Below, piece after piece: positions 31,685 to 49,430 of a stretch of DNA of 64,000 nucleotides. Both the position numbers and the translations under genes were made by a program. The first letter of the stretch is position 1. Each line of letters opens with the position of its first letter. The notes under the pieces are model-generated. The model had not been told where the DNA came from and ran no database searches. It saw only the letters and a list, made by a program, of their open reading frames with translations. The stretch is from an uncultured Bacteroidota bacterium (GTDB lineage Bacteria > Bacteroidota > Bacteroidia > Bacteroidales > P3). The stretch covers positions 124,001 to 188,000 of the forward strand of contig CACZWL010000001.1 in assembly GCA_902784865.1 (NCBI GenBank), in the 5' to 3' direction.

Positions 31685-32941
31685 ATGCTGAAACAACTGC
31701 TTTCCAACAAGTACTCGCTGCTGGTGCTCCTGCTGCTGGCCATGATGCCGTCGGCCGTCACCGCCATCTACTATTCGTTCCACGACCACTGGTGCGACTA
31801 CTGGCCCACGTTCAACTACTTCGTCGGCTACGAATACGGCTTCGGCGGGCGCAAACTCATCGGCACCCTCCTGGAGCCCTTGATGCCCGAGGCCGTCACC
31901 GCCAAGCACATACGCCTCTTCGTCCTGCCGGCCAACCTGCTGATGCTCTTCGGCACGGCCTGGGTCGTCTGGCGCAGCCTGCGGGGCATGGAGCGGCGTG
32001 CGATGCCGGTGGCCATGCTGCTGGCCCTCTATGCCGCAGGGCCTTTCTCGATGTTCGCCTACGTCGCCACCCACCTCTCCGTGTGCTTCATGGAGACCTA
32101 CCAGCTGGTGCTCGTCCTCGCGTGGCTGGCGCTCTATGTGCGCCACCGCGGCAGGTGGTACTACTACCTCGCCACCTTCGCCGTCTCCATCCTCGGATGC
32201 CTCGTCCACCACACCTTCTGCTGCACCCTCTTCCCGCTGATGCTCAGCCTGATGCTCTTCGACGCCTTCGAGGGCGGCCGCCTGCAGCGGGCCCGCGCCG
32301 CCATCTATGGCGCCGACGTGCTGCTCATGCTGGGGCTGTTCGTCGCCCTTTGGCAGTTGAGCGGCATGAACATCGACCTCGACACCCTCTACGACCGCAT
32401 CGCCGCCCGCGCCAACCAGGACGTGCTGCCCGACCGCGACGGCCTGCGCATGCTCTACTTCCTCTCCAATGCCGAGAACTCCAGTGGGGCGCTCACCGCC
32501 GAACGTATGACGCAGTTCGGCGTCGAGCTGCTCATGCTCCTGCCCCTCCTGGCCGCCCTGGCCAGCCCCTGGGTCATCGCCGCCAGGCGCGCCTCCCTCT
32601 CCCACGGGAGTGGGGTCGGGGGTGAGGCCCTCCGCTACTACCTCCCCCTCGCGGCGCAACTGCTGGTGGTGCCCGTCTTCTTCATGGCCACCGACTACAG
32701 CCGCTGGTGGGTCTGCTGGACCTTCAGCATGGCCATGCTCCCCATGGCTGCCGCTGCCACCGGCGACAGCGGCATGGCCCACGCCCTGCAGACCCTCTGG
32801 CAGTGGACCAAGCGCCACTGGTGGCTGCCCCTGCTCGTGGGCATCTACCTCCTCCAGCTCCACAATTCCAACCGCCAGTTCTTCGACGGCATGAAGGAGT
32901 CGGTGGATCTGATTGAATTCATAGGCTCATTCTTCAAATAG
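31685..32941 (+). CDS. Polytopic membrane protein of unknown function
   Basis: 418 aa with about 9-10 hydrophobic helices, short loops and no recognisable catalytic motif. Conserved-looking stretches are YGFGGRKLIGTLLEPLMP near residue 50 and LVHHTFCCTLFPLMLSLML near 180. It resembles small GT-C-like or polymerase-like membrane proteins in layout only. Residues about 303-315 (ASLSHGSGVGGEA) are encoded by the palindromic repeat at 32595-32630. The ATG follows a run of AGAAATCAAAAATCAGAAAT repeats; ThrE starts directly at the stop. Confidence 0.7.
   Translation: MLKQLLSNKYSLLVLLLLAMMPSAVTAIYYSFHDHWCDYWPTFNYFVGYEYGFGGRKLIGTLLEPLMPEAVTAKHIRLFVLPANLLMLFGTAWVVWRSLRGMERRAMPVAMLLALYAAGPFSMFAYVATHLSVCFMETYQLVLVLAWLALYVRHRGRWYYYLATFAVSILGCLVHHTFCCTLFPLMLSLMLFDAFEGGRLQRARAAIYGADVLLMLGLFVALWQLSGMNIDLDTLYDRIAARANQDVLPDRDGLRMLYFLSNAENSSGALTAERMTQFGVELLMLLPLLAALASPWVIAARRASLSHGSGVGGEALRYYLPLAAQLLVVPVFFMATDYSRWWVCWTFSMAMLPMAAAATGDSGMAHALQTLWQWTKRHWWLPLLVGIYLLQLHNSNRQFFDGMKESVDLIEFIGSFFK
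32595..32630 (+). repeat. Palindromic repeat inside the membrane-protein gene
   Basis: CCCTCTCCC ACGGGAG TGGGG followed by TCGGGGGTGAGGCCC; in-frame, located in a loop. Confidence 0.8.
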
Positions 32942-34180
32942 ATGATGACCACCGAACAGGAACGTGCCCTGCGGCTGGCCACCGAGGCCGGTCATATACT
33001 GCTCGAAAACGGGGCGGAAATCAGCCGTGTGGAAGACACCATGGAGCAGCTCTGCACCGCTTATGGTGTCGACGACGAGAGCTTCTTCGTGCTCAGCAAC
33101 GGCATCATCGCCACCGGCCAGCACTACGCCCGCGCCAAGCACATCCCCATCAAGGGGATACAGCTGTCCAGGGTGGTGGAAATAAACCAGTTGAGTCGCG
33201 ACGTGAGCGCAGGCTCCTGCTCGCTCGACGAGCTGGAGCGCCGCCTGCAGGTCATACGTTCTGCCAAGGGGAAACCCTGGTGGGAACTTGTGTCGGGCAT
33301 TGCGCTGGGCGTCGCCTACTTCTGCATCCTCTTCGGAGGCAGCCTGCAGGATGCCGCTGCCACTCTCGCTTGTGGCCTGCTGCTGGGCCTCTTCATGGCC
33401 TTCGTCAGCCCGAATCTGAGCCGCCTCATGGGCAACCTTTTTGGGGGACTGGTCGGCGGGCTGCTCTGCATCGCCGCCTACAGGCTCGCTTCTGCCACCC
33501 TCCACCTCCCCAACATGATAATAGGCACCATCATCGCCCTTGTGCCCGGCGTTCCATTCACCAACGGCATGCGCGACCTGGCCAACGAGGCCTATATCGC
33601 CGGCACCACCCGTCTCACCGACGCCTTCCTTGCCTTCCTCTGCATCGCCCTCGGCGTGGCATTGGCACTGATTGTCGACGGATGGGTATATGGCGGTCTC
33701 ATGCAGCTGGGAGCCCCTATGGTCGATGCTGCCATGTCGGCATGGTACATCCAGTTGCTGGCGGCCTTCATCGGCACCGTGGGTTTTGCCATACTCTTCG
33801 GCACCCCTAGGCGCTATTACCTCGACTGTGGGTTGACCGGCATGGCGGGGTGGGCCGTCTACCTCGCTGCCCTCGCCTCGTTCAGCGTTGTCGGAGCAGC
33901 CTTCCTTGGCGCCCTCGCCGTAGCCCTGTTGAGCCACGGCCTGGCGCGCTGGCGTCGCTGCCCCGTGACCGTCTTCCTCATCTGTGGCATCATCCCCCTC
34001 GTGCCCGGCGGCGGCATCTTCTGGACAGCCTACCACCTCGTGAACAACCACCTCCCCCTCGCCGCCGCCACCGGCTTCACCGCCCTCAAGGTGACCATCG
34101 CCATCGCCGGCGGCATCATCCTCGTTGCAGGCATATACAACAAGATATTGAAAACCAAGCATCGCAATGGCCAAAGCTAA
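32942..34180 (+). CDS. ThrE-family threonine/serine exporter
   Basis: 412 aa. The N-terminal DUF1212 domain (ATEAGHILLENGAEISRVED, residues 12-31, and SNGIIATG) is followed by about five helices, then the DUF3815 domain with a second helix set (CGIIPLVPGGGIFWTAYHL). This is the fused one-chain form of ThrE. It exports threonine, serine or, in some bacteria, other metabolites. It abuts the preceding gene and overlaps radA by 14 bp, so all three are probably one transcript. Confidence 0.87.
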   Translation: MMTTEQERALRLATEAGHILLENGAEISRVEDTMEQLCTAYGVDDESFFVLSNGIIATGQHYARAKHIPIKGIQLSRVVEINQLSRDVSAGSCSLDELERRLQVIRSAKGKPWWELVSGIALGVAYFCILFGGSLQDAAATLACGLLLGLFMAFVSPNLSRLMGNLFGGLVGGLLCIAAYRLASATLHLPNMIIGTIIALVPGVPFTNGMRDLANEAYIAGTTRLTDAFLAFLCIALGVALALIVDGWVYGGLMQLGAPMVDAAMSAWYIQLLAAFIGTVGFAILFGTPRRYYLDCGLTGMAGWAVYLAALASFSVVGAAFLGALAVALLSHGLARWRRCPVTVFLICGIIPLVPGGGIFWTAYHLVNNHLPLAAATGFTALKVTIAIAGGIILVAGIYNKILKTKHRNGQS

Positions 34181-35549
34181 GACATATTATTTCTGCCAGG
34201 AATGTGGCTACCAGAGCAGCTCGTGGCTCGGGCGCTGCCCGGAGTGCGGCAAGTTCGGCACCTTCGCCGAGGAGGTCGTAGCCCCACACAAAACTCAGAA
34301 TTCAAAACTCAAAATACAGAGTGTCTCCACCCCCAAGCGCATCCAAGAGGTGACCTACAGCGAGACCCGCCGCATTGAGACCCATTGCGGCGAGTTCGAC
34401 CGCGTGCTCGGCGGCGGCATCGTCCCCGGCAGCCTGCTGCTCCTCGGCGGCGAGCCTGGCATCGGCAAGAGTACCCTGCTGCTGCAGACGGCCTTGGCTA
34501 TCCACGACCGCAAGCTCCTTTACGTCAGCGGCGAGGAGAGCGAACAGCAAATCAAGATGCGTGCCGACCGACTGCTCCCCTCTCTTGAAAGGAGAGGGGC
34601 TGGGGGTGAGGCCCTTTACGTCGTCTCTGAGACTGTCACGCAGCGCATCTTCGAGCATATCAATGCCGTGCAGCCCGACCTGCTTATCGTCGACTCTATC
34701 CAGACCATCAGCACCGAGGAGCTCGACAGCCCCGCCGGCAGCGTGGGACAGATACGCCAGTGTACCAGCGAGTTCCAGCACTATGCCAAGTCGACAGGCG
34801 TGCCGGTGCTCCTCATCGGCCACATCACCAAGGACGGCACCCTGGCAGGCCCCAAGGTGATGGAGCATATCGTCGACGCCGTCCTCCAGTTCGAGGGCGA
34901 CCGCAACTACGGCTACCGCATCCTCCGCGCGCTGAAGAACCGTTTCGGCAGCACCGCCGAGCTGGGCATCTTCGAGATGGAAGGCAGCGGCCTGCGCGAG
35001 GTGCCCAACCCCAGCGAGTTCCTGCTGAGCCAGCGCGACGAGACCCTCAGCGGCGCCGCCGTGGCCGCCACCCTCGAGGGGGCCAGGCCTATGTTCATCG
35101 AGGTGCAGAGCCTCGTCAGCAGCGCCGTCTACGGCACCCCCCAGCGCAATGCCAACGGCTTCGATATGAGGCGGTTGAGTATGCTGCTGGCCGTCCTCGA
35201 GAAGCGCTGTGGTTTCAAGCTCGGCGCCAAGGATGTCTTCCTCAACATCGCCGGCGGCCTGCGTGTTGCTGATCCCGCCATCGACCTCGCCGTGGCTTGC
35301 GCCATACTGAGCTCCAACGTCGACATACCCATCTCGCCGCGCTTCTGTTTCGCCGCCGAGCTGGGCCTGAGCGGCGAGGTGCGCCCCGTCAGCCGACTAG
35401 AGCAACGCATAGCCGAGGCTGACCGCCTGGGGTTCGAGAAGATATTCATCTCGAAGTACAACCTGCGCGGCCTCGACCGCAAACGCTTCGGTATCGAGGT
35501 GGTGCCCGTGAGCGTCATCGAGGAGGCTTTTCGCGGTTTGTTCGCGTAA
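34167..35549 (+). CDS. radA: DNA repair protein RadA
   Basis: 460 aa. Zinc finger FCQECGYQSSSWLGRCPECG (residues about 8-27), Walker A GEPGIGKST, the RadA-specific KNRFGS motif, and a C-terminal Lon-protease-like domain. RadA drives branch migration during recombination. Two linkers are made of repeats: residues about 41-51 (KTQNSKLKIQ, AT-rich array) and about 136-149 (LLPSLERRGAGGEA, palindromic repeat at 34575-34613), the latter in a surface loop between the Walker A and Walker B regions. All catalytic motifs are intact, so the gene is presumably functional. Confidence 0.95.
   Translation: MAKAKTYYFCQECGYQSSSWLGRCPECGKFGTFAEEVVAPHKTQNSKLKIQSVSTPKRIQEVTYSETRRIETHCGEFDRVLGGGIVPGSLLLLGGEPGIGKSTLLLQTALAIHDRKLLYVSGEESEQQIKMRADRLLPSLERRGAGGEALYVVSETVTQRIFEHINAVQPDLLIVDSIQTISTEELDSPAGSVGQIRQCTSEFQHYAKSTGVPVLLIGHITKDGTLAGPKVMEHIVDAVLQFEGDRNYGYRILRALKNRFGSTAELGIFEMEGSGLREVPNPSEFLLSQRDETLSGAAVAATLEGARPMFIEVQSLVSSAVYGTPQRNANGFDMRRLSMLLAVLEKRCGFKLGAKDVFLNIAGGLRVADPAIDLAVACAILSSNVDIPISPRFCFAAELGLSGEVRPVSRLEQRIAEADRLGFEKIFISKYNLRGLDRKRFGIEVVPVSVIEEAFRGLFA
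34575..34613 (+). repeat. Palindromic repeat inside radA
   Basis: CTCCCCTCTC TTGAAA GGAGAGGGG then CTGGGGGTGAGGCC. Single unit, tail on the 3' side, frame kept. Confidence 0.85.
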
Positions 35550-35605
35550 ATCAGGCAGATACGCATTTTTTATAATTTAGTAGTTGCAAATTCAAACTTT
35601 TTTCG

Positions 35606-35613
35606 TATCTTTG
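35606..35613 (+). promoter_or_regulatory. -7 element of ffh
   Basis: TATCTTTG followed by CAGCGGA, 28 bp before the ATG; ACTTTTTTC upstream may act as the -33 region. Confidence 0.65.
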
Positions 35614-35640
35614 CAGCGGATATTATACACTGTGTAGACT

Positions 35641-36960
35641 ATGTTTGAGAACCTTAGTAGCAAGATAGAGAAAGCGTTACATACCCTTCGTGGTAAAGGT
35701 AGCATCACTGATATCAACGTGGCGGAGACCGTCAAGGAGGTGCGCAAGGCCCTGCTCGATGCCGACGTCAGCTATCCCATCGCCAAGGAGTTCACCGACC
35801 GCGTGAAGGCCGAGGCCATGGGCCGCAACGTCATCCAGAGCATCGAACCTGGTCAGCTGATGGTGAAGATTGTCCATGAGGAACTTACGAAGCTCATGGG
35901 CAGCGAGGCCGTCGACATCAACATCAAGGGTCAGCCCGCCATCATCCTTATCGCGGGTCTGCAGGGTTCGGGTAAGACCACCTTCTCGGCCAAGCTCGCC
36001 AACTACCTGAAGACCAAGAAGGGCCGCGGCGTGATGCTCGTGGCTGGCGACGTCTACCGCCCAGCCGCTATCAGCCAGCTGCAGACGCTCGGCACCCAGA
36101 TCGGCGTGCCGGTCTACACCGAGGAGGGCAACCGCAACCCCGTTCAGATTGCCAAGAATGCCATCAACGAAGCCAAGTCGAAGGGCGTGAATGTGGTCAT
36201 CGTCGACACCGCCGGCCGCTTGGCTGTCGACGAGGAGATGATGGACGAGATTGCCGCCCTGAAACGCGAGCTGCAGCCGCAGGAGACCCTCTTTGTGGTC
36301 GACTCGATGACCGGTCAGGATGCCGTCAACACCGCCAAGGCCTTCAACGACCGTATTGACTTCGACGGCGTGGTGCTCACCAAGCTCGACGGCGACACCC
36401 GCGGCGGCGCCGCTCTCACCATTCGCTACACGGTCGACAAGCCCATCAAGTTCGTCGGCATCGGCGAGAAGATGGAGGCCCTCGATGTCTTCCACCCCGA
36501 CCGCATGGCCAACCGCATCCTCGGCATGGGCGACGTGGTCAGCCTTGTGGAGCGCGCCCAGGAGCAGTATGACGAGGCCGAGGCACGCAAGATACAGAAG
36601 AAGCTGATCCACAACGAGTACAACTTCGAGGACTTCCTCTCGCAGGTGGCCCAGATCAAGAAGATGGGTTCGATGAAGGACCTTATCGGCATGATTCCCG
36701 GCATGGACAAGCTGACGCGCAATGTGGAGATCAGCGACGATGCCTTCAAGCCCATCGAGGCCATGATAGGCAGCATGACACCCTACGAGCGCCGCAACCC
36801 CAGCTGCCTCAACGGCAGCCGCAAGCAGCGCATTGCCGCCGGCAGCGGCTGCACCATACAGGACCTCAACCGCTTCCTCAAGCAGTTCGAGGACACCCGC
36901 AAGATGATGAAGATGGTGAGCAAAAGCAACGGCAAGCTGCCGATGCGGCGGAGGAGATAA
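35641..36960 (+). CDS. ffh: Signal recognition particle protein Ffh
   Basis: 439 aa. N domain (1-90), G domain with GLQGSGKTTFSAKLA (G1), DTAGRL (G3) and TKLDGDTRGGA (G4/G5 region), and the M domain (about 320-435) with IPGMDKLTRNV and the RNA-binding NGSRKQRIAAGSG helix-turn. It binds SRP RNA and signal sequences of nascent membrane proteins and delivers ribosomes to FtsY. Length and motifs are normal. Confidence 0.96.
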   Translation: MFENLSSKIEKALHTLRGKGSITDINVAETVKEVRKALLDADVSYPIAKEFTDRVKAEAMGRNVIQSIEPGQLMVKIVHEELTKLMGSEAVDINIKGQPAIILIAGLQGSGKTTFSAKLANYLKTKKGRGVMLVAGDVYRPAAISQLQTLGTQIGVPVYTEEGNRNPVQIAKNAINEAKSKGVNVVIVDTAGRLAVDEEMMDEIAALKRELQPQETLFVVDSMTGQDAVNTAKAFNDRIDFDGVVLTKLDGDTRGGAALTIRYTVDKPIKFVGIGEKMEALDVFHPDRMANRILGMGDVVSLVERAQEQYDEAEARKIQKKLIHNEYNFEDFLSQVAQIKKMGSMKDLIGMIPGMDKLTRNVEISDDAFKPIEAMIGSMTPYERRNPSCLNGSRKQRIAAGSGCTIQDLNRFLKQFEDTRKMMKMVSKSNGKLPMRRRR

Positions 36961-36966
36961 GAGCCT

Positions 36967-37013
36967 TCCCCCCCTGCCCCCCTCTCCCGAAGGAGAGAGG
37001 GGAGGGGAGAGGT
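36967..37013. repeat. Palindromic repeat between ffh and folD
   Basis: CCCCCTCTCCCGAAGGAGAG then AGGGGAGGGGAGAGG. A somewhat altered unit in the 96-bp gap before folD. Confidence 0.65.
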
Positions 37014-37056
37014 TAGCAGAAGTGAATAAAACAAAGTATATATAGTATAAAGTACA

Positions 37057-37995
37057 ATGAATAATATGGGAGACAATCATGTATCTACTCCCCTCTCCAG
37101 CAAGGAGAGGGGCGAGGGGGTGAGGCTGTTGGACGGCAAGGCGATGGCCTTGCAAATCAAAGATGAGATAGCCAACGAGGTGCGCTCGTTGACCGACGCC
37201 GGGCACCGCGCGCCCCACCTGGCGGCTGTTATTGTGGGCGAGGACGGCGCCAGTCAGACCTATGTGGCCAACAAGGAGAAGTCGAGCCACGAGGTGGGCT
37301 TCACCTCGAGCGTCTACCGCATGGCCGAGTCTACCTCGGAGAGGCAGCTGCTGGAGACGATAGAGTTCCTCAACAACGACCCCGACATCGACGGGTTCAT
37401 CGTCCAGCTGCCCCTGCCCAAGCATATCGACGAGCAGAAGGTCATCAACGCCATCTCGCCCGACAAGGATGTCGACGGCTTCACGCCGGTCAACGTGGGT
37501 CGCATGGTCCTGGGCGAGGAGTGCTTCGTGCCCGCCACCCCGATGGGCATCTGCACCCTGCTCAAGCGCTTCGGCATCGAGACCGCAGGCAAGCATTGTG
37601 TCGTCCTCGGCCGCTCGAATATCGTCGGTACCCCCGTTGCCAACCTGCTGAGCCGCAAAGGGTTCGATTGCACAGTCACCCTCTGCCACAGCCGTACCAG
37701 CAACCTCAAGGAGCTGACCCTCCAGGCCGATATCGTCGTGGTGGCCATCGGCAAGCCCGAGTTCCTCACGGCCGACATGGTGAAGCCCGGCGCCGTGGTC
37801 ATCGACGTGGGCATCCACCGCGTGGCCGACGCTTCGAAGAAGAACGGCTACCGCGTCATCGGCGACGTGAAGCACGACGAGGTCGACGCCAAGTGCAGCT
37901 GGGTCACCCCTGTGCCTGGCGGCGTAGGCCCGCTGACCATCGTCAGCCTGCTGCAGAACACGCTGCAGGCCTACCACCGCCAGACGCGCAACTAA
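37057..37995 (+). CDS. folD: Bifunctional methylenetetrahydrofolate dehydrogenase/cyclohydrolase
   Basis: 312 aa as given. FolD features are present: [13 protein letters not shown] (catalytic Lys), the [16 protein letters not shown] motif, [28 protein letters not shown] (NADP loop) and the C-terminal [12 protein letters not shown]. It interconverts methylene-, methenyl- and formyl-THF. Normal FolD begins a few residues before LLDGKA; here the preceding 22 residues are coded by a palindromic repeat (37086-37127). GTG 37120, in the tail of that repeat, is in-frame and would give a start of normal length (MRLLDGKA), so either start is possible. Confidence 0.93.
37086..37127 (+). repeat. Palindromic repeat at the 5' end of folD
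   Basis: ACTCCCCTCTCC AGCAA GGAGAGGGG then CGAGGGGGTGAGGCT. It supplies residues [14 protein letters not shown] or, alternatively, the GTG start itself. Confidence 0.8.
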
Positions 37996-38018
37996 GGCGC
38001 CGGCAGCACGACAAACAG

Positions 38019-38055
38019 CGAGGCCGCTACCCTTCGGGCAGCGGCCTCGTTTCTC
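38019..38055. terminator. Bidirectional terminator between folD and a convergent lipoprotein
   Basis: Stem CGAGGCCGCT (38019-38028) / AGCGGCCTCG (38040-38049), flanked by TTTCTC on one side and an A-rich stretch on the other. Confidence 0.75.
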
Positions 38056-38070
38056 TGGTCCGCACGGCTC

Positions 38071-38505
38071 TTATTCGCCGATGGCCACCACGCGGAAGGT
38101 CATCTTGGGTATGTCGCCCTCGGGCAGCTCATAGTCGAAGTCCTGCATGATGAAAGTGATGATGCCGGGCGCCACTTCGAAGCGCAGGTTCTCGGTGACG
38201 AATGCGGGATTGATGTTGTTGCCGAACTCGTCGTAGGTGCTGAAGTCGATAGAGTAGACGTAGGGCAGCATGCTCTGGCGGCCGTTCTCCTCGTAGACGT
38301 AGGCGTTCACGGTGCCGTGGTAAACCACGTCCTCGTTTAGGGCGTCCCAGCGTACGCTACAGGCCAGGTAGGACTTGCCGTTGGGCACAACCCAGTCGTC
38401 GCTGTAGATGGTCACTTCCATGCTTTCCATGGTCTGGTGCTGGCACGAGCTGAATCCGAAGACCAGCATGGCGGCACCCACTAGGGATAGGATGATCTTT
38501 TTCAT
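38071..38505 (-). CDS. Lipoprotein of unknown function
   Basis: 144 aa from MKKIILSLVGAAML, lipobox GFSSC (Cys20). The mature part is beta-rich (VEVTIYSDDWVV-like strands, FSTYDEFGNNINP, KMTFRVVAIGE), as in small immunoglobulin-like Bacteroidales lipoproteins. No named family. A longer start upstream would sit in the promoter. -7 element TATCTTTG on the minus strand at 38552-38559. Confidence 0.72.
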   Translation of the reverse strand: MKKIILSLVGAAMLVFGFSSCQHQTMESMEVTIYSDDWVVPNGKSYLACSVRWDALNEDVVYHGTVNAYVYEENGRQSMLPYVYSIDFSTYDEFGNNINPAFVTENLRFEVAPGIITFIMQDFDYELPEGDIPKMTFRVVAIGE

Positions 38506-38551
38506 GTCGTTGCTATTTTTTTTGAGTTTTTTTGTTCTGCGTTTCACAGTG

Positions 38552-38559
38552 CAAAGATA
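38552..38559 (-). promoter_or_regulatory. -7 element of the 38.1 kb lipoprotein
   Basis: Minus-strand TATCTTTG followed by CACTGTG, 47 bp before the ATG. The remaining bases to 38804 hold no other recognisable feature. Confidence 0.6.
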
Positions 38560-39665: not shown

Positions 39666-39700
39666 GAGCCGGAAGGCACGAGGCGAAAGGCGACAAGGCA

Positions 39701-40988: not shown

Positions 40989-43104
40989 ACTGGTACAGGC
41001 TGTTGAGCGTCTTTACTTTCACCTTCGTCTGGCTTACGTCGGCTTTCGGATTGGCGGGTATCAGCACCGTGCGCAGCTTCTCGCCGGCGCGGAGGTCGAC
41101 GAAGTTTCGCGTGAAGTGGCCGTCCACGTGCGGTTCGGTGTCGATATACACGTCGTAGAGGTCGGTCAGCGCCTTCATCGTCACCACCAGCTTGCCGTCG
41201 CTCTCCCAGGCCTGGCTCACCGTGTACTTGGCCTCGGGGTACGTGCGGTCCTTGGGGTATACGCTGTAGTATTCTTCCCAGCCCCCCTCTCCCACGGGAG
41301 AGGGGCCGGGGGTGAGGCCGAAGAGCGCCTGCGCGCGGTAGTGCAGCGCCTTCCAGTTGCCGTAATAGTCTATCGAGCTCCACGAGGCCACGGGCCAGCA
41401 GTCGTTGAGCTGCCAGTAGAGGGTGCCCATGCAGTGGGGCTGCTGGCTGATGTGTTGCAGGATTCCGTAGCCCACGCCCCAGGCCTGCAGCAGCTGGCTG
41501 ACGTAGGCGAAGTCCTCCAGCGAGAGGCTCTTGCTGTCGAAGCCGTAGTACTGACGCATGGCCTTGTCGATGATCAGCAGGCCGCGGCCGTGCTTCTGGT
41601 GATTGCGGAGGGTGGGGGAGTCGACGCTCATTTGGCCCTCGGGGCAGAAGCGGCGTATGGTGCTCGTCAGGGGGTAGCTCTGGAAGCCGTACTCCGTCAT
41701 GAAGCGGCCGGTCTTCTCGCGGTACACCTCGAAGGGCATCTCGCCCCACCAGACGCCCCAGTAGTGGCTGTTGCCGTGGGTGACGCACTCGGGGTGGCCC
41801 CAGCCGTAGAGCGGCGAGGTGGTGATGTAGGGGCGCTGCTGCGGGTCGCAGTCCTTGACTGCTTCTGCCAGGATACTAGTCGAACTAGTATTACTAGATA
41901 TACTAGAATCTCTAGAGTTTCTAGAATTTCTAGAATAGCCGAAGATAGTGTCCATCGCCTTCTCCAGTCGGGCGCGCTGCTCGGGCGTCCAGTTGAACTG
42001 GCCCTGCCAGCCCCAGTCTTCCCAGCCGTTCTTCACCTCGTTGTTGCCGCACCAGAGGACGATGCAGGGGTGCTTCGCCAGGCGGCTCACCTGCTGACGC
42101 GCCTCCTCGCGGATGCTCTCCAGCATCTCGGGGCTGTCGGGGTAGGGCGTGCCGGCGAAGATGAAGTCCTGCCACACCATGAGGCCCAGCGAGTCGCAGA
42201 GGTCGTAGAAGTAGTCGTGCTCGTAGAGGCCGCCGCCCCACACCCTTATCATATTGAACCCCGCCTCCTTGGCCGAGCAGAGCAGGTAGCGGTAGCGGGC
42301 TCGGTTGGCGCTGTCCAGCACGGGGAAGCTGTGCACAGGTATCCAGTTGGCGCCCTTGATGAAGAGCTTCACCCCCTTGTCCTTCCCTGTGTCGGCAATG
42401 AAATAGAAGGACTGCCCTATGCTGTCGGCTTCTTGTACCAGTTCTACGTTGCGGTATGGGAAGCCGTCTGCCCCCCTCTCCTGCAAGGAGAGGGGCTGGG
42501 GGTGAGGCCGGTTTGTGATATGCACCGGCTTCCATATCCCGCAGGTGGCCAGCCGCGGCCCCCAGTCCCAGCCCTGCTGGTAGGGCGCTATGCGCGTGAA
42601 GGCGCGCCGCTCGGGCAGCGCGATGCCATAGGCGGCTTCGCGGAGCGAGTCTTCCAAAGGAAGGAACTTTACGCTAATGACAATGGTATCTTCTATATTT
42701 GGAAATGGAAACTTGTATTGGCGATACATGTTGTCGGTATCGGGCACCCACAATAAGTGCTCGTATTGGCCTCTGGTGTTGGAAACACGAATGTCTGCCG
42801 GCCCCGCCAGGCCCTCGAATGCGAGCCAAAGCGTGTCCCCTTCGGGGAGGTCTTTTTTGCAAATGGTCGTTTGGTACACCCATACACTGTCGCCCACCCA
42901 CTGCACCGAGTCCTCGTTGGTGCCATAATAGGGGTCGGGAATGAGGCCGTTGGCCATTAGGTCGGTGTGGATAAATCCCGGCACCGTTGCCGGATACCAC
43001 TTGCCGTTGTATTCAAACTGCCACTCGGTGAGCTCCACTGTGTCGGGCCTCGTTGTGCACGCCGCCAACAGCAGCGGCAACAGTAGGTATGCTATGCGTT
43101 TCAT
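40987..43104 (-). CDS. GH2 beta-mannosidase-like lipoprotein with apparent domain losses
   Basis: 705 aa from MKRIAYLLLPLLLAAC (lipobox Cys16). Sugar-binding domain (about 20-195; ATVPGFIHTDLMANGLIPDP, WDWGPRLATCGIW), then almost directly the TIM barrel from IKGANWIPVHSFP with the acid/base WCGNNE (Glu356) and nucleophile MTEYGFQS (Glu471). Family members near 850-865 aa have an Ig-like domain between these parts and another after the barrel; both seem absent. Exactly at the two junctions lie palindromic repeats (residues about 198-212 and 595-607). A CTAG 9-bp array codes for residues about 390-409. The active-site residues remain, so activity is possible but uncertain. Confidence 0.85.
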   Translation of the reverse strand: MKRIAYLLLPLLLAACTTRPDTVELTEWQFEYNGKWYPATVPGFIHTDLMANGLIPDPYYGTNEDSVQWVGDSVWVYQTTICKKDLPEGDTLWLAFEGLAGPADIRVSNTRGQYEHLLWVPDTDNMYRQYKFPFPNIEDTIVISVKFLPLEDSLREAAYGIALPERRAFTRIAPYQQGWDWGPRLATCGIWKPVHITNRPHPQPLSLQERGADGFPYRNVELVQEADSIGQSFYFIADTGKDKGVKLFIKGANWIPVHSFPVLDSANRARYRYLLCSAKEAGFNMIRVWGGGLYEHDYFYDLCDSLGLMVWQDFIFAGTPYPDSPEMLESIREEARQQVSRLAKHPCIVLWCGNNEVKNGWEDWGWQGQFNWTPEQRARLEKAMDTIFGYSRNSRNSRDSSISSNTSSTSILAEAVKDCDPQQRPYITTSPLYGWGHPECVTHGNSHYWGVWWGEMPFEVYREKTGRFMTEYGFQSYPLTSTIRRFCPEGQMSVDSPTLRNHQKHGRGLLIIDKAMRQYYGFDSKSLSLEDFAYVSQLLQAWGVGYGILQHISQQPHCMGTLYWQLNDCWPVASWSSIDYYGNWKALHYRAQALFGLTPGPSPVGEGGWEEYYSVYPKDRTYPEAKYTVSQAWESDGKLVVTMKALTDLYDVYIDTEPHVDGHFTRNFVDLRAGEKLRTVLIPANPKADVSQTKVKVKTLNSLYQ
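41283..41318 (-). repeat. Palindromic repeat inside the mannosidase (3' copy)
   Basis: CCCCTCTCC CACG GGAGAGGGG with CCGGGGGTGAGGC tail on the plus strand; on the coding strand it reads LTPGPSPVGEGG. Confidence 0.85.
41876..41933. repeat. CTAG palindrome array inside the mannosidase
   Basis: CTAG at 41876, 41885, 41894, 41903, 41912, 41921 and 41930: seven units at exactly 9 bp. The coding strand reads a Ser/Arg/Asn-rich peptide (YSRNSRNSRDSSISSNTSS). Confidence 0.9.
42470..42509 (-). repeat. Palindromic repeat inside the mannosidase (5' copy)
   Basis: CCCCCTCTCC TGCAA GGAGAGGGG then CTGGGGGTGAGGC; coding strand PHPQPLSLQERGAD. Confidence 0.85.
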
Positions 43105-43478
43105 TTTGTCTTGAGAAATGCGAAGATTACGGCTAAAATAATGAATCCGAAGCTCACGAAGTGGTTCCAGCGGATGGGCTCGCTCTTGAAGACCGTGGCC
43201 ACGATGATGGTGAAGACCGTCAGCGAGATGCATTCGGCCAGTATCTTGAGCTGCATCAGCGTGAAGGGGCCGCCGTTGATTTGGCTGCCAATGCGGTTGG
43301 CCGGTATCAGGAACGAGTACTCCAGCAGCGCCACGCCCCACGACGCCAGGATGATGAGTATCAGTGGCCAATCGGTGTTGATCTTCATCTCGGTGAGCTT
43401 CAGGTTGCCGTACCAGGCAAAGGTCATGAAGACATTGCTCACCACGAGCATCAGGATGGTTATCAGTCCTTTCGACAT
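43101..43478 (-). CDS. DUF486 / DMT-like small membrane protein
   Basis: 125 aa, four hydrophobic helices: [53 protein letters not shown] and FGFIILAVIFAF. EYSFLIPANRIGSQINGG is the conserved DUF486 segment. Probably a small drug/metabolite transporter relative; substrate unknown. It overlaps cinA by 16 bp upstream and the mannosidase by 4 bp downstream, so it is translated within that operon. Confidence 0.87.
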   Translation of the reverse strand: MSKGLITILMLVVSNVFMTFAWYGNLKLTEMKINTDWPLILIILASWGVALLEYSFLIPANRIGSQINGGPFTLMQLKILAECISLTVFTIIVATVFKSEPIRWNHFVSFGFIILAVIFAFLKTK

Positions 43479-44794
43479 AGCAGTTTGATTAACATTGAGA
43501 ATGCTTGGTTGACCGTGCGGTCGATGTTCTGCTGGCGTCGGCGTCCGGGGAAGTTCAGCAGCTGGGCCTCGGTGTGGGTGGCGTCGGCCACAGCGATCCA
43601 CACCGTGCCCACGGGCTTCTCCTTGGTGCCGCCGTCGGGTCCGGCGATGCCAGTGGTGGCAATGGCCAGGTCGGCCCTGAGGCGCTTGCGCACGCCCTCC
43701 ACCATCTCGCGCACCGTCTCCTCGCTCACGGCGCCGTGGGCTTCCAACGTGCTGTGCTGTACACCTAAGGCGCATTCCTTCACCTCGTTGCTGTAGGCTA
43801 TGATGCCGCCACGGAAGTAGGCCGAAGCCCCTGCCTGCGCCGTCAGCTGACTGGCGATGGTGCCTCCGGTGCAGCTCTCGGCGGTGGCCAGCGTCAGGCC
43901 GCGCTCCGTGAGGGTCTTGTGCACCAGCTCCGCCAGGGTCTCGCAGTCCTCGCCGACGATGTATTGTCCTGCAAGGGCATAAAGCCCTTGCAGCAATTCT
44001 GGAATATCCGGAATGTCCGGAGTGTCCGGGGCTATCCGGCATGTCAGCCGCAGCTTCACCATCCCCGCCACCGGCAGGTAGGCCAGCCGTATGCACTCCG
44101 GCAGCGCCAGCTCCCACGGCTCAATCAGGTCGCTGAGGAAGCTCTCGCCGATGCCCTGCACCAGTATGTTCTTGTTGATGATGGTCTCCGTCTGGAAGGT
44201 CTCCTGCAGCTTGGGAATGACGCGGTTCTGCATGAGCCACTCCATCTCGAAGGGCACGCCGGGGAGCGACACCAGGACGGCCTTCCCCCCGACCCCTCTC
44301 CCGCGGGAGAGGGGAGTGTTCGCCCCGCGCATTCCGTCCCCCTCTCCCACGGGAGAGGGGCTAGGGGTGAGGCCGAACCACATGCACGGCGCCGTCCCCA
44401 GGTCGTTGTTGAGCACCTCGCAGCAGCGCGGCACCAGAGCCTGGGCGCGGTTGACGGGCGTCAGCTCGAAGCCGCGCATGGCGAAGATGCGTCGCACGTT
44501 CTCCAGTGCCACCTCGCTCTCCACCAGCTCGCTGCCGAAGTAGTCGCAGAGCAGTTTCTTGGTGATGTCGTCCTTGGTGGGGCCGAGGCCGCCGGTCAGC
44601 AGCGTGATGGCGCTGCTGTGCATGGCGCTGTCCACCGTCTGCCAGATGTCCTCGCGGCTGTCGCCCACCACCACGGTGTGCGTCACCTCGAAGCCCGCCT
44701 CGGTGAGCATCTTGGCCATCGCCGACGCATTGGTGTTCACCACCTGCCCCAGCAGCAGCTCGTCGCCTATGTTGATGATTGTTACAGTGTTCAT
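43463..44794 (-). CDS. cinA: CinA family protein (nicotinamide-nucleotide amidase)
   Basis: 443 aa. N-terminal MoCF-like domain ([34 protein letters not shown]) and C-terminal amidase domain ([40 protein letters not shown]). By family knowledge it hydrolyses NMN to nicotinate mononucleotide in NAD recycling. Two repeat inserts are visible: a double palindromic element at residues about 140-171 ([13 protein letters not shown]... to RGRGVGGKA) and a CCGG array at about 251-265 ([12 protein letters not shown]), both in surface loops. Typical members are about 415 aa, so the extra length matches the inserts. Confidence 0.93.
43999..44040. repeat. CCGG palindrome array inside cinA
   Basis: TCTGGA 43999, TCCGGA 44007 and 44016, TCCGGG 44025, TCCGGC 44034/44035; about 9-bp steps, in-frame. 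Confidence 0.75.
44282..44375. repeat. Double palindromic element inside cinA
   Basis: 94 bp: two CCCCTCTCC...GGAGAGGGG units separated by 24 bp, with GGGGTGAGGC at the 3' end and a decayed inverse (GCCTTCCCC) at the 5' end. The mutS2 copy at 47377 is also 94 bp. Confidence 0.85.
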
Positions 44795-44840
44795 AAATCA
44801 TAGATATTTACTGCCTGCCCAGTAGGAATGATTTTGTTGT

Positions 44841-45362
44841 TCATCTGTTGGGTTTTCTGTCGTATTCGAGGTAGGCGTAGTCGAGGCCGGAGGCGTCGTC
44901 GTGGAGGCGGACGCTCTGGCGCACGAGGGTGAAGGTGGAGAGGTCGATGGTGGGGAAGTAGACGTCGGCGTCGTAGTCGCGGTATACTTCGGTGACATAG
45001 AGGCGGTTGCAGAAGGGGAGGAGCGCCTTGTAGATGGCGGCGCCACCCATGACGAAGACTTCGTCGTCGCAATCTTTGAGGGCCTTGAAGAGGCCGTTCA
45101 CGCTGTGTACCACCGTGGCGCCCTCGGCGCTGAAGTCGGGGTTGTTGGTCATCACGATGTTCTGTCGGCCGGGCAGGGGGCGCTTGGGCAGCGAGTCCCA
45201 CGTCTTGCGCCCCATGACCACGGGGTGGCTGGTGGTGAGCTTCTTGAAGCGCTTCAGGTCGTCGCTGAGGTGCCACAGCAGGTCGTTGTTCTTGCCGATG
45301 GCGCCGTTCTGCGCTATGGCCACGATGATGCTCAAGTTCGGTTTCTTATTGGTATCTATCAT
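44841..45362 (-). CDS. folA: Dihydrofolate reductase
   Basis: 173 aa from MIDTNKKPNLSIIVAIAQNG. DHFR features: NGAIGKNNDLLWHLSDDLKR, VVMGRKTWDSLPKRPLPGR and EVFVMGGAAIYKAL. It regenerates tetrahydrofolate. The ATG overlaps the hydF stop by 4 bp and cinA starts 46 bp further on. Earlier in-frame starts lie inside hydF. Confidence 0.94.
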   Translation of the reverse strand: MIDTNKKPNLSIIVAIAQNGAIGKNNDLLWHLSDDLKRFKKLTTSHPVVMGRKTWDSLPKRPLPGRQNIVMTNNPDFSAEGATVVHSVNGLFKALKDCDDEVFVMGGAAIYKALLPFCNRLYVTEVYRDYDADVYFPTIDLSTFTLVRQSVRLHDDASGLDYAYLEYDRKPNR

Positions 45363-46543
45363 TTTCTGAATATTTTTGTTGCACGATCGAAGATGCCTGT
45401 GCACCAGGCCAGGGCCAGGCCGTAGTTGCTCACGGGCACCCCGGCTTCCAGGGCGGGCAGCAGGCGCGCCTTGACTTGCTGGGCCGTGATGACGCAGCCG
45501 CCGCACTGTATCACAAGGGCATATTGCGACAGGTCGGAGGGTAGTGGCGATTGTCCGCCAATCACCTCACATTCAATCTCCTTGCCCGTCTTCTTGCGCA
45601 TGGCGGCGGGCAGTTTCACGCGGCCGATGTCCTCGCAGGTGACGTTGTGGGTGCAGCTCTCGAGCAGCAGCACGCGGTCGCCGTCCTGCAGTTGTCCAAT
45701 GGCCTGAGTGCCATGCAGGTACTCGTCGAAGAGCCCCTTTTGACGCGCCAGCACGACGCTGAAGCTCGTCAGCGGAATCTCTTCCGGCACCACGGCGGCC
45801 ACTTTGGCAAACACCTGGCTGTCGGTGACGACCAGATGCGGCTTGTGCAACGAGGCCAACGTCTTCCCCAGCTCCTCGGGCTGGCAGAAGACGGCCACGG
45901 CGTGGAGGTCCATCAGGTCGCGTAGCACCTGCACCTGCGGCAGTATCATGCGCCCTTCGGGCGCCGATCTGTCGATGGGAGTGACCAGCACCACGGTGTC
46001 GCCCTGCCCGACCACGTCGCCCAGCAGCGTCTGGCCGCGGTAGGCGCTCTCGGGCAGCGCCCACCGTATGGCCTCGATGAGGGGCTCGCGCAGCGTCGGG
46101 TCGCTGGTGGTCAATCTAAAATCCGGAATTTCCGGAATTTCCGGACAATCCGGAATATCCGGATATTCCGGATTGTCCGTCTTGCTCCTTATCTTCAGCA
46201 TCGGCGTTCCGTGCGTGGTGCACCAGTCGGCCACGCGCTCTTCGGGCGCGCCCCACTCGGTGAAGAGCAGCAGCGCCAGGTCTACCTCGGCCAGCGCCGC
46301 CATGCTTTTCTCCACGCGCTGCAGGCCGAGGGCGCCCTCGTCGTCGATGCCGGCCGTGTCGATGAGCACCACCGGTCCGATGCCGCCGATCTCCATGCTC
46401 TTGCGCACCGGGTCGGTCGTCGTGCCCGCCGTGTCGCTCACGATGGCTATCTGCTGGCCCGTCAGGTAGTTGACCAGCGAGCTCTTGCCTACGTTGCGCC
46501 GCCCAAACAGGCCGATGCGGGGTTTCAGTTCGTTGCCTTTCAT
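45359..46543 (-). CDS. hydF: [FeFe] hydrogenase maturation GTPase HydF
   Basis: 394 aa. GTPase domain with FGRRNVGKSSLVN (G1) and IDTAGIDDEG (G3), a dimerisation domain, and the C-terminal cluster domain with LESCTHNVTCEDIG (the CxH motif) and IQCGGCVIT (CxxC). HydF is the scaffold that receives the diiron precursor from HydE/HydG and loads HydA. Residues about 121-140 (PEYPDIPDCPEIPEIPD) are encoded by seven 9-bp TCCGG units and lie between the GTPase G4 region and the next domain. It is 19 kb from hydA; hydE and hydG are outside the window. Confidence 0.95.
   Translation of the reverse strand: MKGNELKPRIGLFGRRNVGKSSLVNYLTGQQIAIVSDTAGTTTDPVRKSMEIGGIGPVVLIDTAGIDDEGALGLQRVEKSMAALAEVDLALLLFTEWGAPEERVADWCTTHGTPMLKIRSKTDNPEYPDIPDCPEIPEIPDFRLTTSDPTLREPLIEAIRWALPESAYRGQTLLGDVVGQGDTVVLVTPIDRSAPEGRMILPQVQVLRDLMDLHAVAVFCQPEELGKTLASLHKPHLVVTDSQVFAKVAAVVPEEIPLTSFSVVLARQKGLFDEYLHGTQAIGQLQDGDRVLLLESCTHNVTCEDIGRVKLPAAMRKKTGKEIECEVIGGQSPLPSDLSQYALVIQCGGCVITAQQVKARLLPALEAGVPVSNYGLALAWCTGIFDRATKIFRK
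46122..46181. repeat. CCGG palindrome array inside hydF
   Basis: TCCGG at 46122, 46131, 46140, 46149, 46158, 46167 and 46176, exact 9-bp period, most units being TCCGGA palindromes. In-frame. Confidence 0.9.
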
Positions 46544-46615
46544 AGTTGACTACATTACGTAAAAAACGTTAAAATATTGTACATTATAAAAAATGTTGTG
46601 CCGTTGGAAAATAAA

Positions 46616-46647
46616 TTTGGCCGGTCCGGAATTTTTTCGTATCTTTG
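46616..46647 (+). promoter_or_regulatory. Orphan consensus promoter, antisense to mutS2
   Basis: TTTG 46616-46619, 20-bp spacer, TATCTTTG 46640-46647 followed by CAAAG. The first 15 bases (GAAAATAAATTTGGC) equal those of the promoters at 2360 and 3219. There is no gene on this strand until 53814. Confidence 0.7.
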
Positions 46648-46847
46648 CAAAGTTGTTTCTTCGGCGGTGTTTTCTGCAAGAGTTTGTGTAAAAGTGCTTA
46701 ATGGCTCTCCGTGGCGCGGATTGCGGTGCGCAGGCTGGGGGCTGGGTTAAGGAACAGTTATAGAACAGACCTGGCTGATACCTGGAGGAGACGAAGAACA
46801 GACGAAGAACAGCCCTACCATTTACCTATGGTTGCCTTGGCAACCTC

Positions 46848-46891
46848 CTAGGAAATCCTAGGAAGTCCTAGGAAGTCCTAGGAGGGCCTAG
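46848..46891. repeat. CCTAGG palindrome array, intergenic
   Basis: CTAG at 46848, 46858, 46868, 46878 and 46888: five units with exact 10-bp spacing, in contrast to 9 bp inside genes. Confidence 0.9.
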
Positions 46892-46910
46892 GAGGGGGGA
46901 CAGTTTTTGT

Positions 46911-49430
46911 CTACCGAAGTTCCACTATCGTAACGCCTACGCCGCCGAGTTCTATCTTCTCGGGGTGGAAGCTGCGCACCTCGCGGATGCCCTTCAACTC
47001 GCTGTGTATCACCTGCATCAGTATGCCGTTGCCCTTGCCGTGGAGTATGCGCACCTCTTTCTCGCTGAGGAGCGTGGCCTCGTCGAGGTATTTGTGCAGC
47101 TGGTCGAGCGCCTCTTCGGCGCGGTGGCCGCGCAGGTCGAGGGTGGTCTTGAAGTGGGCGCGCTTCTCGTTCATGTCGTCGTAGATCGAGGCGAAGCGCG
47201 AGGCGTTGTTCTGCTTCTGAACGGGTATCTTCTGCTTGGCGGTTCCGGTGAGGCGGTCGAGGGGTATGGTCATGCGCATCGAGTTGCTCTCCACCACGGC
47301 TTTCTTGCCTTTGATTTCCACCACCTCGCCGTAGGTCTCCTGCCCGTCGATGCGCACGATGCTGCCGACGCAAATAGCCTCACCCCCGTCCCCTCTCCCG
47401 TGGGAGAGGGGGGTAGTATGCATGGGGCTAGTTCCCCCCTCTCCCACGGGAGAGGGGTTGGGGGTGAGGCTTTTTTTGGCTTCCTCGAGCCTGGCGCGGG
47501 CCTGTTTGGTGGCCTCGCGCTCGGCTTGGGCGCTCTTGATGTCGCTGATGGTGCGCTCGACGGTGCGGTTGGCGCCCTCCAGTATCTGCTGCGCCTCCTT
47601 GCGCGCCGCGCTGACTATCTCGTGCTTGCGGCTCTCCAGGCGCTCGTTGAGCCGTTGGTATTTGGTCGTGACCTCGTTGAGGAATTCGTCGGCCACGCGC
47701 AGCTCCTCTTTCTGGCGCTCGATCTCCTTCTTGTCGAGCTCGAGCTGCTGCAGCTGGTGCTCGAAGTTGAGCTGTTCGCGCCCCACCATCTCGCCGGCGC
47801 GCTCGAGGATGTCCTTGGGGAAGCCGATGCTCTCGGCGATCTCGAAGGCGAAGCTCGAGCCGGGGTGCCCCACGTTGAGGCGGTAGAGCGGGCGCATGCG
47901 CTCGGTGTCGAACATCATGGCGCCGTTCACTATCTGCGGCATGCGGTCGGCCAGCAGCTTGAGGTCGGCGAAGTGGGTCGTCACCACGCCGTAGGCTCCG
48001 CGCTCGTAGAGCCGCTCGAGCACCGCCTCGGCTATGGCGCAGCCGCTGCGGGGCTCGGTGCCGCCGCCCAGCTCGTCCATCAGGAAGAGGGTGTCGCCGC
48101 CGGCCTCGGCCAGCAGGCGCTTCATGTTCTGCAGGTGCGAGGTGTAGGTGGAGAGGTCGTTGTCGATCGACTGCTGGTCGCCGATGTCGATGAATATCGA
48201 GCCGAAGAGGCCGCACTCCGACGTGGGCCGCAGCGGCACCGGCATGCCGCACTGCAGCATGTACTGTATCAGCCCCACGGCCTTGAGCAGCACCGACTTG
48301 CCGCCGGCATTGGGGCCGGAGATGATGAGGATCCTGGCAGCCTCACCCCCGGCCCCTCTCCTTTCTGGAGAGGGGAGTGAAGTGTGGAGTGTCAGGTCGA
48401 AGGGTACCACTTCGTTGGCGGTATCTGCTCCCCTCTCCTTCGAGGAGAGGGGTTGGGGGTGAGGCCGGAGGAGCAGCAATGGGTGCCGCGCCTCAAGCCA
48501 TTCGATGCGGGGCTCGGGGTGCAGGGTGGGCACGCAGGCGTTAAGTTCCACCGCCACGCGGGCCTTGGCGCGGAGGAAGTCCACGCGTGCCAGGAAGCGG
48601 TAGGCCTCCTCCAGCTGCGGCAGCAGGGGGCGCAGGCGCTCGCTGAAGGTGAGCAGTATGCGCTGCACCTCGTGGCGCTCGTCGAAGTCCAGCTCGCGCA
48701 GGTCGTTGCCCAGTTCCACCACCTCCTGCGGCTCCACGAAGGCCGTCTGGCGCGTGGCGCTCTCGTCCTGTATGAGGCCCCGAATGCGGCGGCGGTGGGT
48801 GGTGAGCAGGGGTATGACGGGGCGGCCGTCGCGGATGGTCACCTCGGCCCCTTCGGGAGCCCACCCCTCGCGCTTGGCGCGCGCCAGGGCGCTGTTCACC
48901 TGCGCCTCCACCTCGGCGGCCTTGCGCGCCTTGGTGCGCCGTATCTCGGCCAGCTGCGGCGACGCGTTGTCGTGCAGCTCGCCGTGGTCGTTGATGAGCT
49001 GCCCCAGCAGGCTGTTGATGACGTTCAGCTGCGAGCTCTTGCCGCCGTAGCCCAGCTCCACCTCGACGGCCATGTCGCGCAGCGCCGTGTATTGCTGGTG
49101 CTCCTCGGCGGTGAGGAAGAGGTAGCATTCGCGGATGGTGCGCAGGGAGAGTTTGTGGTCGAACAGGGCTTCGAGGGGGATGAAGGTGTTGCCCACGCGC
49201 AGATGGACGAGGGTGGGGGTGAGGTCGATGAAGTCCTGCTGGGGGAATTCACTCTCCATGAGGACAATCTGGCGCATCTCCTCGGTCAGTTGCAGCTCGT
49301 GGCTGAGCGCGGTGTGGTCGGTCGTGAAGGCCATCTCGTCGGCCATGCGGGTGGCGAGGGCGTTGGTGGTCTGCTCGGCCACCATCTGGCGTATGCGGTC
49401 GAAGCCAAGCTTCTGTTCTATATTGTCCAT
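46911..49430 (-). CDS. mutS2: MutS2 endonuclease / ribosome-rescue ATPase
   Basis: 839 aa. N-terminal MutS core and clamp (1-310), ATPase domain with GPNAGGKS Walker A (about 370-377), LFLMDELGGGTEPRSG Walker B and LLTTHF-like region, coiled coil (about 510-640), and a C-terminal Smr domain beginning LDLRGHRAEEALDQLHKYLD with HGKGNG. It suppresses recombination or rescues collided ribosomes, depending on species. Two palindromic double elements are inserted: residues about 322-363, ending roughly seven residues before the P-loop, and 653-684. All motifs are intact. It directly follows the amidase gene. Confidence 0.94.
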   Translation of the reverse strand: MDNIEQKLGFDRIRQMVAEQTTNALATRMADEMAFTTDHTALSHELQLTEEMRQIVLMESEFPQQDFIDLTPTLVHLRVGNTFIPLEALFDHKLSLRTIRECYLFLTAEEHQQYTALRDMAVEVELGYGGKSSQLNVINSLLGQLINDHGELHDNASPQLAEIRRTKARKAAEVEAQVNSALARAKREGWAPEGAEVTIRDGRPVIPLLTTHRRRIRGLIQDESATRQTAFVEPQEVVELGNDLRELDFDERHEVQRILLTFSERLRPLLPQLEEAYRFLARVDFLRAKARVAVELNACVPTLHPEPRIEWLEARHPLLLLRPHPQPLSSKERGADTANEVVPFDLTLHTSLPSPERRGAGGEAARILIISGPNAGGKSVLLKAVGLIQYMLQCGMPVPLRPTSECGLFGSIFIDIGDQQSIDNDLSTYTSHLQNMKRLLAEAGGDTLFLMDELGGGTEPRSGCAIAEAVLERLYERGAYGVVTTHFADLKLLADRMPQIVNGAMMFDTERMRPLYRLNVGHPGSSFAFEIAESIGFPKDILERAGEMVGREQLNFEHQLQQLELDKKEIERQKEELRVADEFLNEVTTKYQRLNERLESRKHEIVSAARKEAQQILEGANRTVERTISDIKSAQAEREATKQARARLEEAKKSLTPNPSPVGEGGTSPMHTTPLSHGRGDGGEAICVGSIVRIDGQETYGEVVEIKGKKAVVESNSMRMTIPLDRLTGTAKQKIPVQKQNNASRFASIYDDMNEKRAHFKTTLDLRGHRAEEALDQLHKYLDEATLLSEKEVRILHGKGNGILMQVIHSELKGIREVRSFHPEKIELGGVGVTIVELR
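47377..47470. repeat. Double palindromic element inside mutS2 (C-terminal copy)
   Basis: 94 bp bounded by terminal inverted repeats GCCTCACCCCC (47377-47387) and GGGGGTGAGGC (47460-47470), each next to a CCCCTCTCC / GGAGAGGGG hairpin. Confidence 0.9.
48340..48465. repeat. Double palindromic element inside mutS2 (N-terminal copy)
   Basis: 126 bp bounded by GCCTCACCCCC (48340-48350) and GGGGGTGAGGC (48455-48465), two hairpins and a longer central spacer that codes for DTANEVVPFDLTLHTS. Confidence 0.9.

Follow-up and report, generated by a model that had tools for sequence, protein, structure and literature searches.

The question raised by the 64-kb window considered here (64,000 nucleotides from an uncultured Bacteroidota bacterium of the Bacteroidales, positions 124,001 to 188,000 of contig CACZWL010000001.1 in assembly GCA_902784865.1) is what kind of element has placed short GC-rich hairpin repeats, in frame and in either orientation, inside its housekeeping genes. 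An earlier note on this DNA had described a dispersed palindromic family with these habits; all of the copies that it listed were found where it had placed them and the observation is confirmed, with its interpretation supported in part. It appears that the repeat is probably a non-autonomous family resembling the REPINs (inverted doublets of repetitive extragenic palindromic, or REP, sequences), whose short form survives in genes. The sequence GGAGAGGGG occurs 21 times in the window, as compared with 0.71 on average and never more than 4 in 100 dinucleotide shuffles, and identical insertion sites recur across separately assembled genomes. The chance that we are dealing with fortuitous G-rich motifs or with artefacts of assembly, a concern that the earlier note had itself raised, is on these grounds next to nil; nothing was found in its favour, the sequences being largely metagenome assemblies.

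In the genome to which the window belongs (G000 in our numbering; 2.40 Mb in 43 contigs, the genomes compared here being mostly drafts), the pattern GGAGAGGGGNNGGGGGTGAGGC has 21 sites at up to two mismatches and 36 at up to three, against 0 and 3, respectively, for the reversed pattern used as a control, and a second subtype with AGAGGGGG stems contributes further copies. The 21 sites merge into 16 loci, seven of which fall in one 16-kb part of the window, the part that the earlier note described, a density that was reached in 0 of 20000 uniform simulations. The copies in the window are the following, with genes called by a simple codon model trained on 16 open reading frames of the window, not by a standard gene finder:

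11920..11968, + strand: decayed single unit, intergenic according to the codon-model gene calls
32594..32629, + strand: single unit, in frame in a membrane-protein gene (31685-32941), peptide SLSHGSGVGGEA
34575..34613, + strand: single unit, in frame in radA (34167-35549), peptide LLPSLERRGAGGEA
36963..37014, - strand: decayed left unit of an intergenic inverted pair, directly after an ffh-like stop codon
37087..37127, + strand: right unit of the intergenic pair between ffh and folD, with GTG in its tail
41281..41319, + strand: single unit, antisense to a mannosidase-like GH2 gene (40987-about 43260, - strand), peptide GLTPGPSPVGEGG
42470..42509, + strand: single unit in the mannosidase-like GH2 gene, peptide PHPQPLSLQERGA; genome G011 has a unit at the matching place
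44279..44374, no strand assigned: 96-bp doublet, in frame in cinA (43463-44794, - strand); G011 has a doublet in the matching loop
47376..47471, no strand assigned: 96-bp doublet, in frame in mutS2 (46911-49430, - strand), in the linker preceding the SH3 (MSSS) domain
48339..48466, no strand assigned: two inverted mutS2 units around the native VVPFDLTL strand, also present in G001

In-frame copies thus occupy the membrane-protein gene, radA, the mannosidase-like gene (two copies), cinA and mutS2, much as the earlier note had it, except that an insertion in folD is not supported, the copies at 36963-37127 being intergenic, and that its "double" at 48340 consists in fact of two units around a conserved MutS2 segment. 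This last pair spans 128 bp, and a pair of 125 bp in G139 was grouped with it by flank similarity. Matches in Pfam and NCBIfam support RadA, CinA, MutS2, FolD and a GH2-type protein; neither database returned a match for the membrane protein, and a homologue of the latter (L031) is without the unit. An Rfam scan of window positions 31000-50000 gave no match at gathering scores. The closest RadA relatives are from rumen Bacteroidales metagenome genomes. In a RadA model that is poor overall (mean predicted local distance difference test score, pLDDT, 65.6) and serves for this placement only, the insert falls in the ATPase domain, with a helix on one side and a strand on the other. The ffh stop lies at 36960 and the unit at 37087 precedes the conserved part of FolD, where the GTG in the repeat tail (window 37110-37130) could be the start of conserved FolD; judging from the sequence, as for the name ffh and the folD start themselves, the repeat may supply a start codon here.

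Each unit combines a hairpin, its GC-rich stem 9 bp long and its loop about 4 nt, with two free bases and the tail GGGGGTGAGGC. Of 140 units in four genomes, 139 have C directly after GTGAGG and 138 have C or T at the position that follows; on the 5' side of the stem the unit strand most often reads C[CT]ACT, which is AGT[AG]G when read outward from the hairpin. The doublet is made of two such hairpins in inverted orientation, with the inner foot AGT[AG]GATACC (or AGTGGAATGC) and outward RGCCTCACCCCC ends. The double form, which the earlier note had thought might be the complete element, is a defined unit of 96 bp and carries terminal inverted repeats of the kind found in miniature inverted-repeat transposable elements; their length is 12-13 bp (RGCCTCACCCCC/GGGGGTGAGGCY) instead of the 11 bp given before. 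Our counts of pairs and size classes rest on 261 units in stretches of nine repeat-rich genomes, which are partial copy sets (for G006, 15 of the 26 units present were read) and which leave outside the count those units with mutated tails, such as the left arm of the cinA doublet and part of the AGAGGGGG subfamily. Among 85 neighbouring pairs no more than 130 bp apart, 75 are tails-out, 2 tails-in and 8 direct. The doublet in mutS2 (47376-47471) folds over its whole length, with -51.5 kcal/mol as DNA (z -12.7) and -89.4 kcal/mol as RNA (z -11.4). Loop cores are identical in 17 of 75 arm pairs (10.4 expected), and arm-to-arm identity as proof of a single hairpin unit was rejected because this excess is modest. 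Departures from the standard anatomy include three tandem single units with a 39-bp period, or 13 codons (L373, G139:C20:6802-6901), a doublet of a glycosyltransferase gene with AGCAGCCTC triplicated at its left end (L282, about 3610, reverse strand), and a short extra insert, WYAVGSAD, in the tail of one arm of a G011 doublet (L277).

The doublets fall into two size classes that differ in habitat. Short doublets (<115 bp; n = 30, with a mode of 96 bp) lie inside called genes in 27 cases, and 15 of the 16 that measure exactly 96 bp (32 codons) do so; among 45 long doublets (122-198 bp), 8 are inside called genes and 37 outside (Fisher p 4e-10). The split persists when G011 is left out (13/14 versus 5/39 in genes, p 1e-7), in the combined set from G086 and G108, two genomes without a Y1 transposase match (4/5 versus 1/10, p 0.017), and after loci are collapsed to 44 groups with similar flanks (14/17 versus 4/27, p 2e-5), some of which were lumped through the repeat or through neighbouring genes, since the 400-bp flanks may themselves contain copies. 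The length is divisible by three in 20 of the 27 short in-gene doublets and the surrounding frame is still open in the other seven; out of six frames, a mean of 3.26 are open in short in-gene doublets versus 1.24 in long non-coding ones. The family as a whole is less genic than had been supposed, with 126 of the 261 units inside called genes, 90 at gene edges and 45 intergenic. Copies that destroyed a gene are counted here as intergenic or edge, so that "in frame" describes the survivors. Called genes make up 79-83% of the regions in four genomes, and the 90% genic share of the short form is close to this figure; such a share, together with long forms that are mostly lost from genes, is what random landing followed by selection predicts. 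The contrast between a genic 96-bp form and a long intergenic one makes the tolerance of proteins for insertions directly testable.

Many of the long doublets lie between same-strand neighbours, with just a few bases to the stop codon of the one gene and to the start codon of the other. The candidate explanation that they are merely two separate insertions around native sequence fits the mutS2 pair and two sites with signal-peptide-like starts; it was not adopted for the class at large, since in G011, G086 and G108 similar spacers precede genes whose first codons differ, and both a one-unit and a two-insertion origin have to be kept in mind. At the two signal-peptide-like sites (L247, L154), which concern similar genes, the inverted units stand one before the start codon and one in the hydrophobic leader, and L386 and L346 hold pairs with similar flanks. 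Proximity to stops and starts, together with the very stable RNA fold, could be taken to mean that the inserts were selected for a function, as mRNA hairpins that pause translation or regulate operons, or as useful linkers. We consider this very unlikely, given that positions vary by species, that the frames used differ and that relatives hold other sequence in the same loop.

Beyond the window, the genes that harbour the repeat include those for TsaD, TruB, an ABC-F-type ATPase, an oligopeptide-type ABC protein, NqrA, RsgA, CobW, glycosyltransferases and an O-antigen ligase. Both flanks have homologues in another genome for 21 of the 27 short in-gene doublets; among the remaining six, the doublet lies between Pfam domains in L268 and L363 and follows one in L355, and three doublets share a single 311-aa frame of G011 (L264) that lacks flank homologues as well as Pfam matches and is possibly no real gene. 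The copies in window genes align to loops that are variable among relatives, and in many relatives of 60-85% identity these sites show a short loop or a different insert. A few close relatives have a site in common with the window: the first mutS2 loop in G001, and cinA and the mannosidase in G011. No distant homologue among those aligned carried such a peptide, whose presence there the earlier note had named as a refutation. The TsaD loop after HVLSHFI, compared in seven genomes, illustrates the alternation: it holds the repeat in G000, G137 and G011, is short in G086, and is filled by a different, GA/CT-rich sequence in G001 and G115 and by yet another insert in G139. Loops of MutS2 and CinA alternate in the same way, with other inserts in sister species at L222 and L225 (cinA), L185, L193 and L196 (mutS2) and L034 (radA); these alternatives are inverted or simple repeats of the ENGKLKIEN...QFSILNSQL, NEELRMRNEEL...HSSLLTPHSS and SSPSLGEQL types. 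Of 94 such loops 86 were read; 12 of 44 other inserts tested in four genes (>=45 nt, not flagged as belonging to the hairpin-doublet family) were hairpin-prone at z <= -2, versus 2 of 44 control stretches, and 32 were not; the flag that set these inserts apart was permissive, and at least one strong case (L185) was lost through it.

We have here a countable case of selfish hairpin repeats reshaping housekeeping proteins, in which the TsaD, MutS2 and CinA loops swap the repeat for another insert or a short loop. The 96-bp doublet might be gene-adapted, with protein loops as its main habitat, Y1-free copying of hairpins at the replication fork as its means of spread and the loops serving across the genus as reusable docks for several unrelated hairpin repeats; a length of 32 codons, with about half of the frames free of stops, and flexible peptides would enable that use. 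We think this unlikely. Two other features of these proteins may be recorded: tandem TCCGGAATN repeats lie in frame in cinA (43989-44037) and in a neighbouring gene (46113-46179), and a similar stretch, of the NSRNSRD type, occupies a mannosidase loop in which G011 has a doublet.

The reading that we prefer, a REPIN-like non-autonomous family, would have the repeat multiply as single-stranded hairpin DNA, the inverted doublet folding into one long hairpin. A Y1 (HuH) enzyme, now absent in some lineages, possibly processed such hairpins in trans, and past or trans mobilisation by an enzyme of this kind is weakly favoured. Insertion would need no gene targeting: the 96-bp form, with its 32 codons and few stops, would be tolerated after landing in a surface loop, the long AT-rich and stop-rich form would persist mostly between genes, and single units would represent the remains of doublets or separately inserted arms. 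Mobility, which the earlier note had stated, is something that we infer.

Several results weigh against this account. The comparison of relatives, which differ in their loops, gave no clean empty site with identical flanks, and no excision products or intermediates were seen. Known REPs have GT[AG]G 5' of the hairpin, whereas here it stands on the inner 3' side. Outside G011, the loop cores match in 8 of 53 pairs versus 2.8 expected, again a modest excess. The remaining difficulties concern the transposase, for which the search covered Y1 (PF01797) alone. The earlier statement that the window holds no transposase stands for the Y1 family; two PF01797 genes that look IS200-like by motif are present on contig C5 of the same genome, outside the window, with no unit nearby, one of them reaching 44 bits where the IS200 cut-off is 55. 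The Y1 gene at G000:C5:127815-128267 (L153) is bounded by a different hairpin, CAGGGGTT...AACCCCTG, so that its natural substrate looks different from the doublet, which slightly weakens the explanation that we prefer and slightly strengthens the case for spread without a transposase. This gene has identical neighbours in G001 (L170), where the preceding gene holds a simple GGGTGAGG repeat. The Y1 search pointed to 78 places in 41 genomes, not all of them read. In 92 partly overlapping stretches (53 + 30 + 9) from the genus and a few relatives, no unit was found beside a Y1 gene; the loose hits in 4 of the 51 stretches read first are other stems, and one G001 stretch has the simple GGGTGAGG repeat. 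Linkage to a REP-associated tyrosine transposase (RAYT) was accordingly rejected, since no hairpin-doublet unit adjoins any Y1 gene read in the genus. PF01797 is likewise without a match at E 0.1 in G086 (94% complete, 42 copies) and G108 (81% complete, 28 copies), which indicates that a dedicated RAYT is not required today for the repeat to persist. Y1 relatives occur in 60 of 120 congeneric genomes, 7 of the 9 repeat-rich ones versus 53 of the 111 others (p 0.16), and with this comparison, and the lack of Y1 in G086 and G108, we dropped an apparent match between the repeat-rich genomes and one Y1 clade (G000, G001, G006, G011). Outside the genus, one of 30 Y1 loci read (L479, G303:C52) has a tails-out doublet of a related repeat some 600 bp away, and the Y1 gene in question contains an internal stop. 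The existence of repeat-rich genomes with no detected Y1 enzyme raises the question of what moves or maintains REP-like repeats.

One answer would be spread and homogenisation by template switching or gene conversion between hairpins during replication, with the second arm copied from the first and no transposase at all. The two repeat-rich genomes without a Y1 match are in keeping with it, as are those inverted pairs that enclose native sequence, in mutS2, the L260 protein and the mannosidase, where one arm can occur without the other (the L260 protein has one unit in G139 and G108 and two in G006 and G011). Further support comes from an intergenic site at which G000 and G001 share the outer flanks and differ in repeat subtype and spacer; in each genome a neighbouring locus carries that genome's own repeat type and spacer, and this sameness within genomes favours copying between loci inside a genome. 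We find such copying possible and lean against it as the full explanation, because the sharp 96-bp length and the defined ends suggest movement of whole units and the two arms are not generally identical.

Similar sites could be grouped across three or more genomes in six cases (TsaD, a glycosyltransferase, mutS2 and the intergenic ybjQ-ABC site are examples), which implies that some insertions are common by descent, by exchange or through repeated hits. Such groups would be expected of an old family that is immobile now, passed on vertically and by exchange of gene segments, with the differences between species mostly reflecting loss. The cinA gene of G000 is nearer to those of G006 and G011 than to that of G001, and imported segments could explain the 7 of 16 loci found in 16 kb. 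This history is doubtful in view of the patchy distribution within a single genus, where at least one copy (at up to two mismatches) is present in 42 of 120 genomes and the number ranges from 0 to 70, with at most 3 per genome for reversed-pattern controls. The 14 short doublets in 10 called genes of G011, mostly with similar loops and spacers, also tell against it. Phylum-wide, 37 of 395 genomes match at up to one mismatch, often with T as the last base, and the hairpin-tail motif is on that account part of a wider repeat group.

How the family relates to known systems can be judged from published accounts, a survey of REPs (PMC12306157) among them. The REPINs of Pseudomonas fluorescens are inverted REP doublets that form one hairpin with their spacer, 93% of 430 being inverted (PMC3116915). 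The present family shares this build of two inverted REP-like hairpins and a spacer in one hairpin, as well as the many dispersed copies and the predominance of inverted doublets (77 of 85, the tails-out pairs included); it is unlike the P. fluorescens REPINs, which are extragenic and near RAYT genes, in that about half of its units are genic and no adjacent RAYT was found, and GT[AG]G is inside the doublet here, as compared with 5' of the palindrome there (PMC3116915). Since C[CT]ACT is what most often stands 5' of the stem, GT[AG]G falls on the 3' side in the opposite strand; no RAYT gene flanked by the repeat was found in the stretches read, GT[AG]G does not directly precede the palindrome, and the repeat falls outside the standard RAYT-linked GTAG REPs. 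GTAG and CGTC REPs, single or as dimers, have been reported inside DNA-repair, tRNA-modification and other genes of several species, the CGTC type in Bacteroidetes apparently without a dedicated transposase (PMC3733652). CGTC REPs are defined by a terminal CGTC (or TGTC/CCTC), an 8-9 bp stem starting from A-T pairs and a loop of 4-5 nt (PMC3733652). Our repeat resembles them in its 9-bp stem, its loop of about 4 nt and a CCTC within the tail; its stem begins with C-G pairs and its unpaired tail exceeds 10 nt, so that sequence, ends and stem set it apart from the intragenic GTAG and CGTC REPs, for which the available part of that account mentions no split into genic and intergenic size classes (PMC3733652).

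The REPs of TnpAREP subclass 2.4, of canonical long and double-foot types, occur in Cyanobacteria and Bacteroidetes and lie in frame in tnpAREP genes (PMC6006769). They too are Bacteroidetes repeats that insert without breaking the frame, but they flank their tnpAREP gene, for which no counterpart was found here, and their foot motif differs (PMC6006769). TnpAREP acts on single-stranded REPs (PMC8266576). The analogy with the Rickettsia palindromic elements that the earlier note had drawn holds at the level of behaviour, since both are palindromic inserts kept in unrelated protein genes (PMC3733652), in our case in frame and accounting for the 126 genic units; sequence and host are different, and the architecture is nearer to that of REPINs. 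Enterobacterial RU elements, small mobile sequences that keep frames open inside genes, are another family with longer units of 103-168 bp (PMC2759123). A literature search by titles and abstract openings, with subscription papers mostly outside its reach, returned no recognised description of this repeat family; as far as that search goes, the kind of element is known, and what is new is the family itself, its division into two size classes and the repeated use of the same loops.

As to a possible viral origin, the exact pattern is also found in 66 stretches of viral contigs, in which a simple motif scan detected no Y1 gene. One 43.5-kb contig listed as viral, IMGVR_UViG_3300020057_000061 (L399, L404, L454 and others), carries 26 exact copies in the stretches read, all on the + strand of their loci. 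The window itself contains further repeats: a near-identical 45-nt pair at 2357 and 3219, CACCTACCAGAT repeats at 12813, 21699 and 30060, and, at 12444-12640, a 34-nt inverted repeat that is 94% complementary, with arms 129 nt apart.

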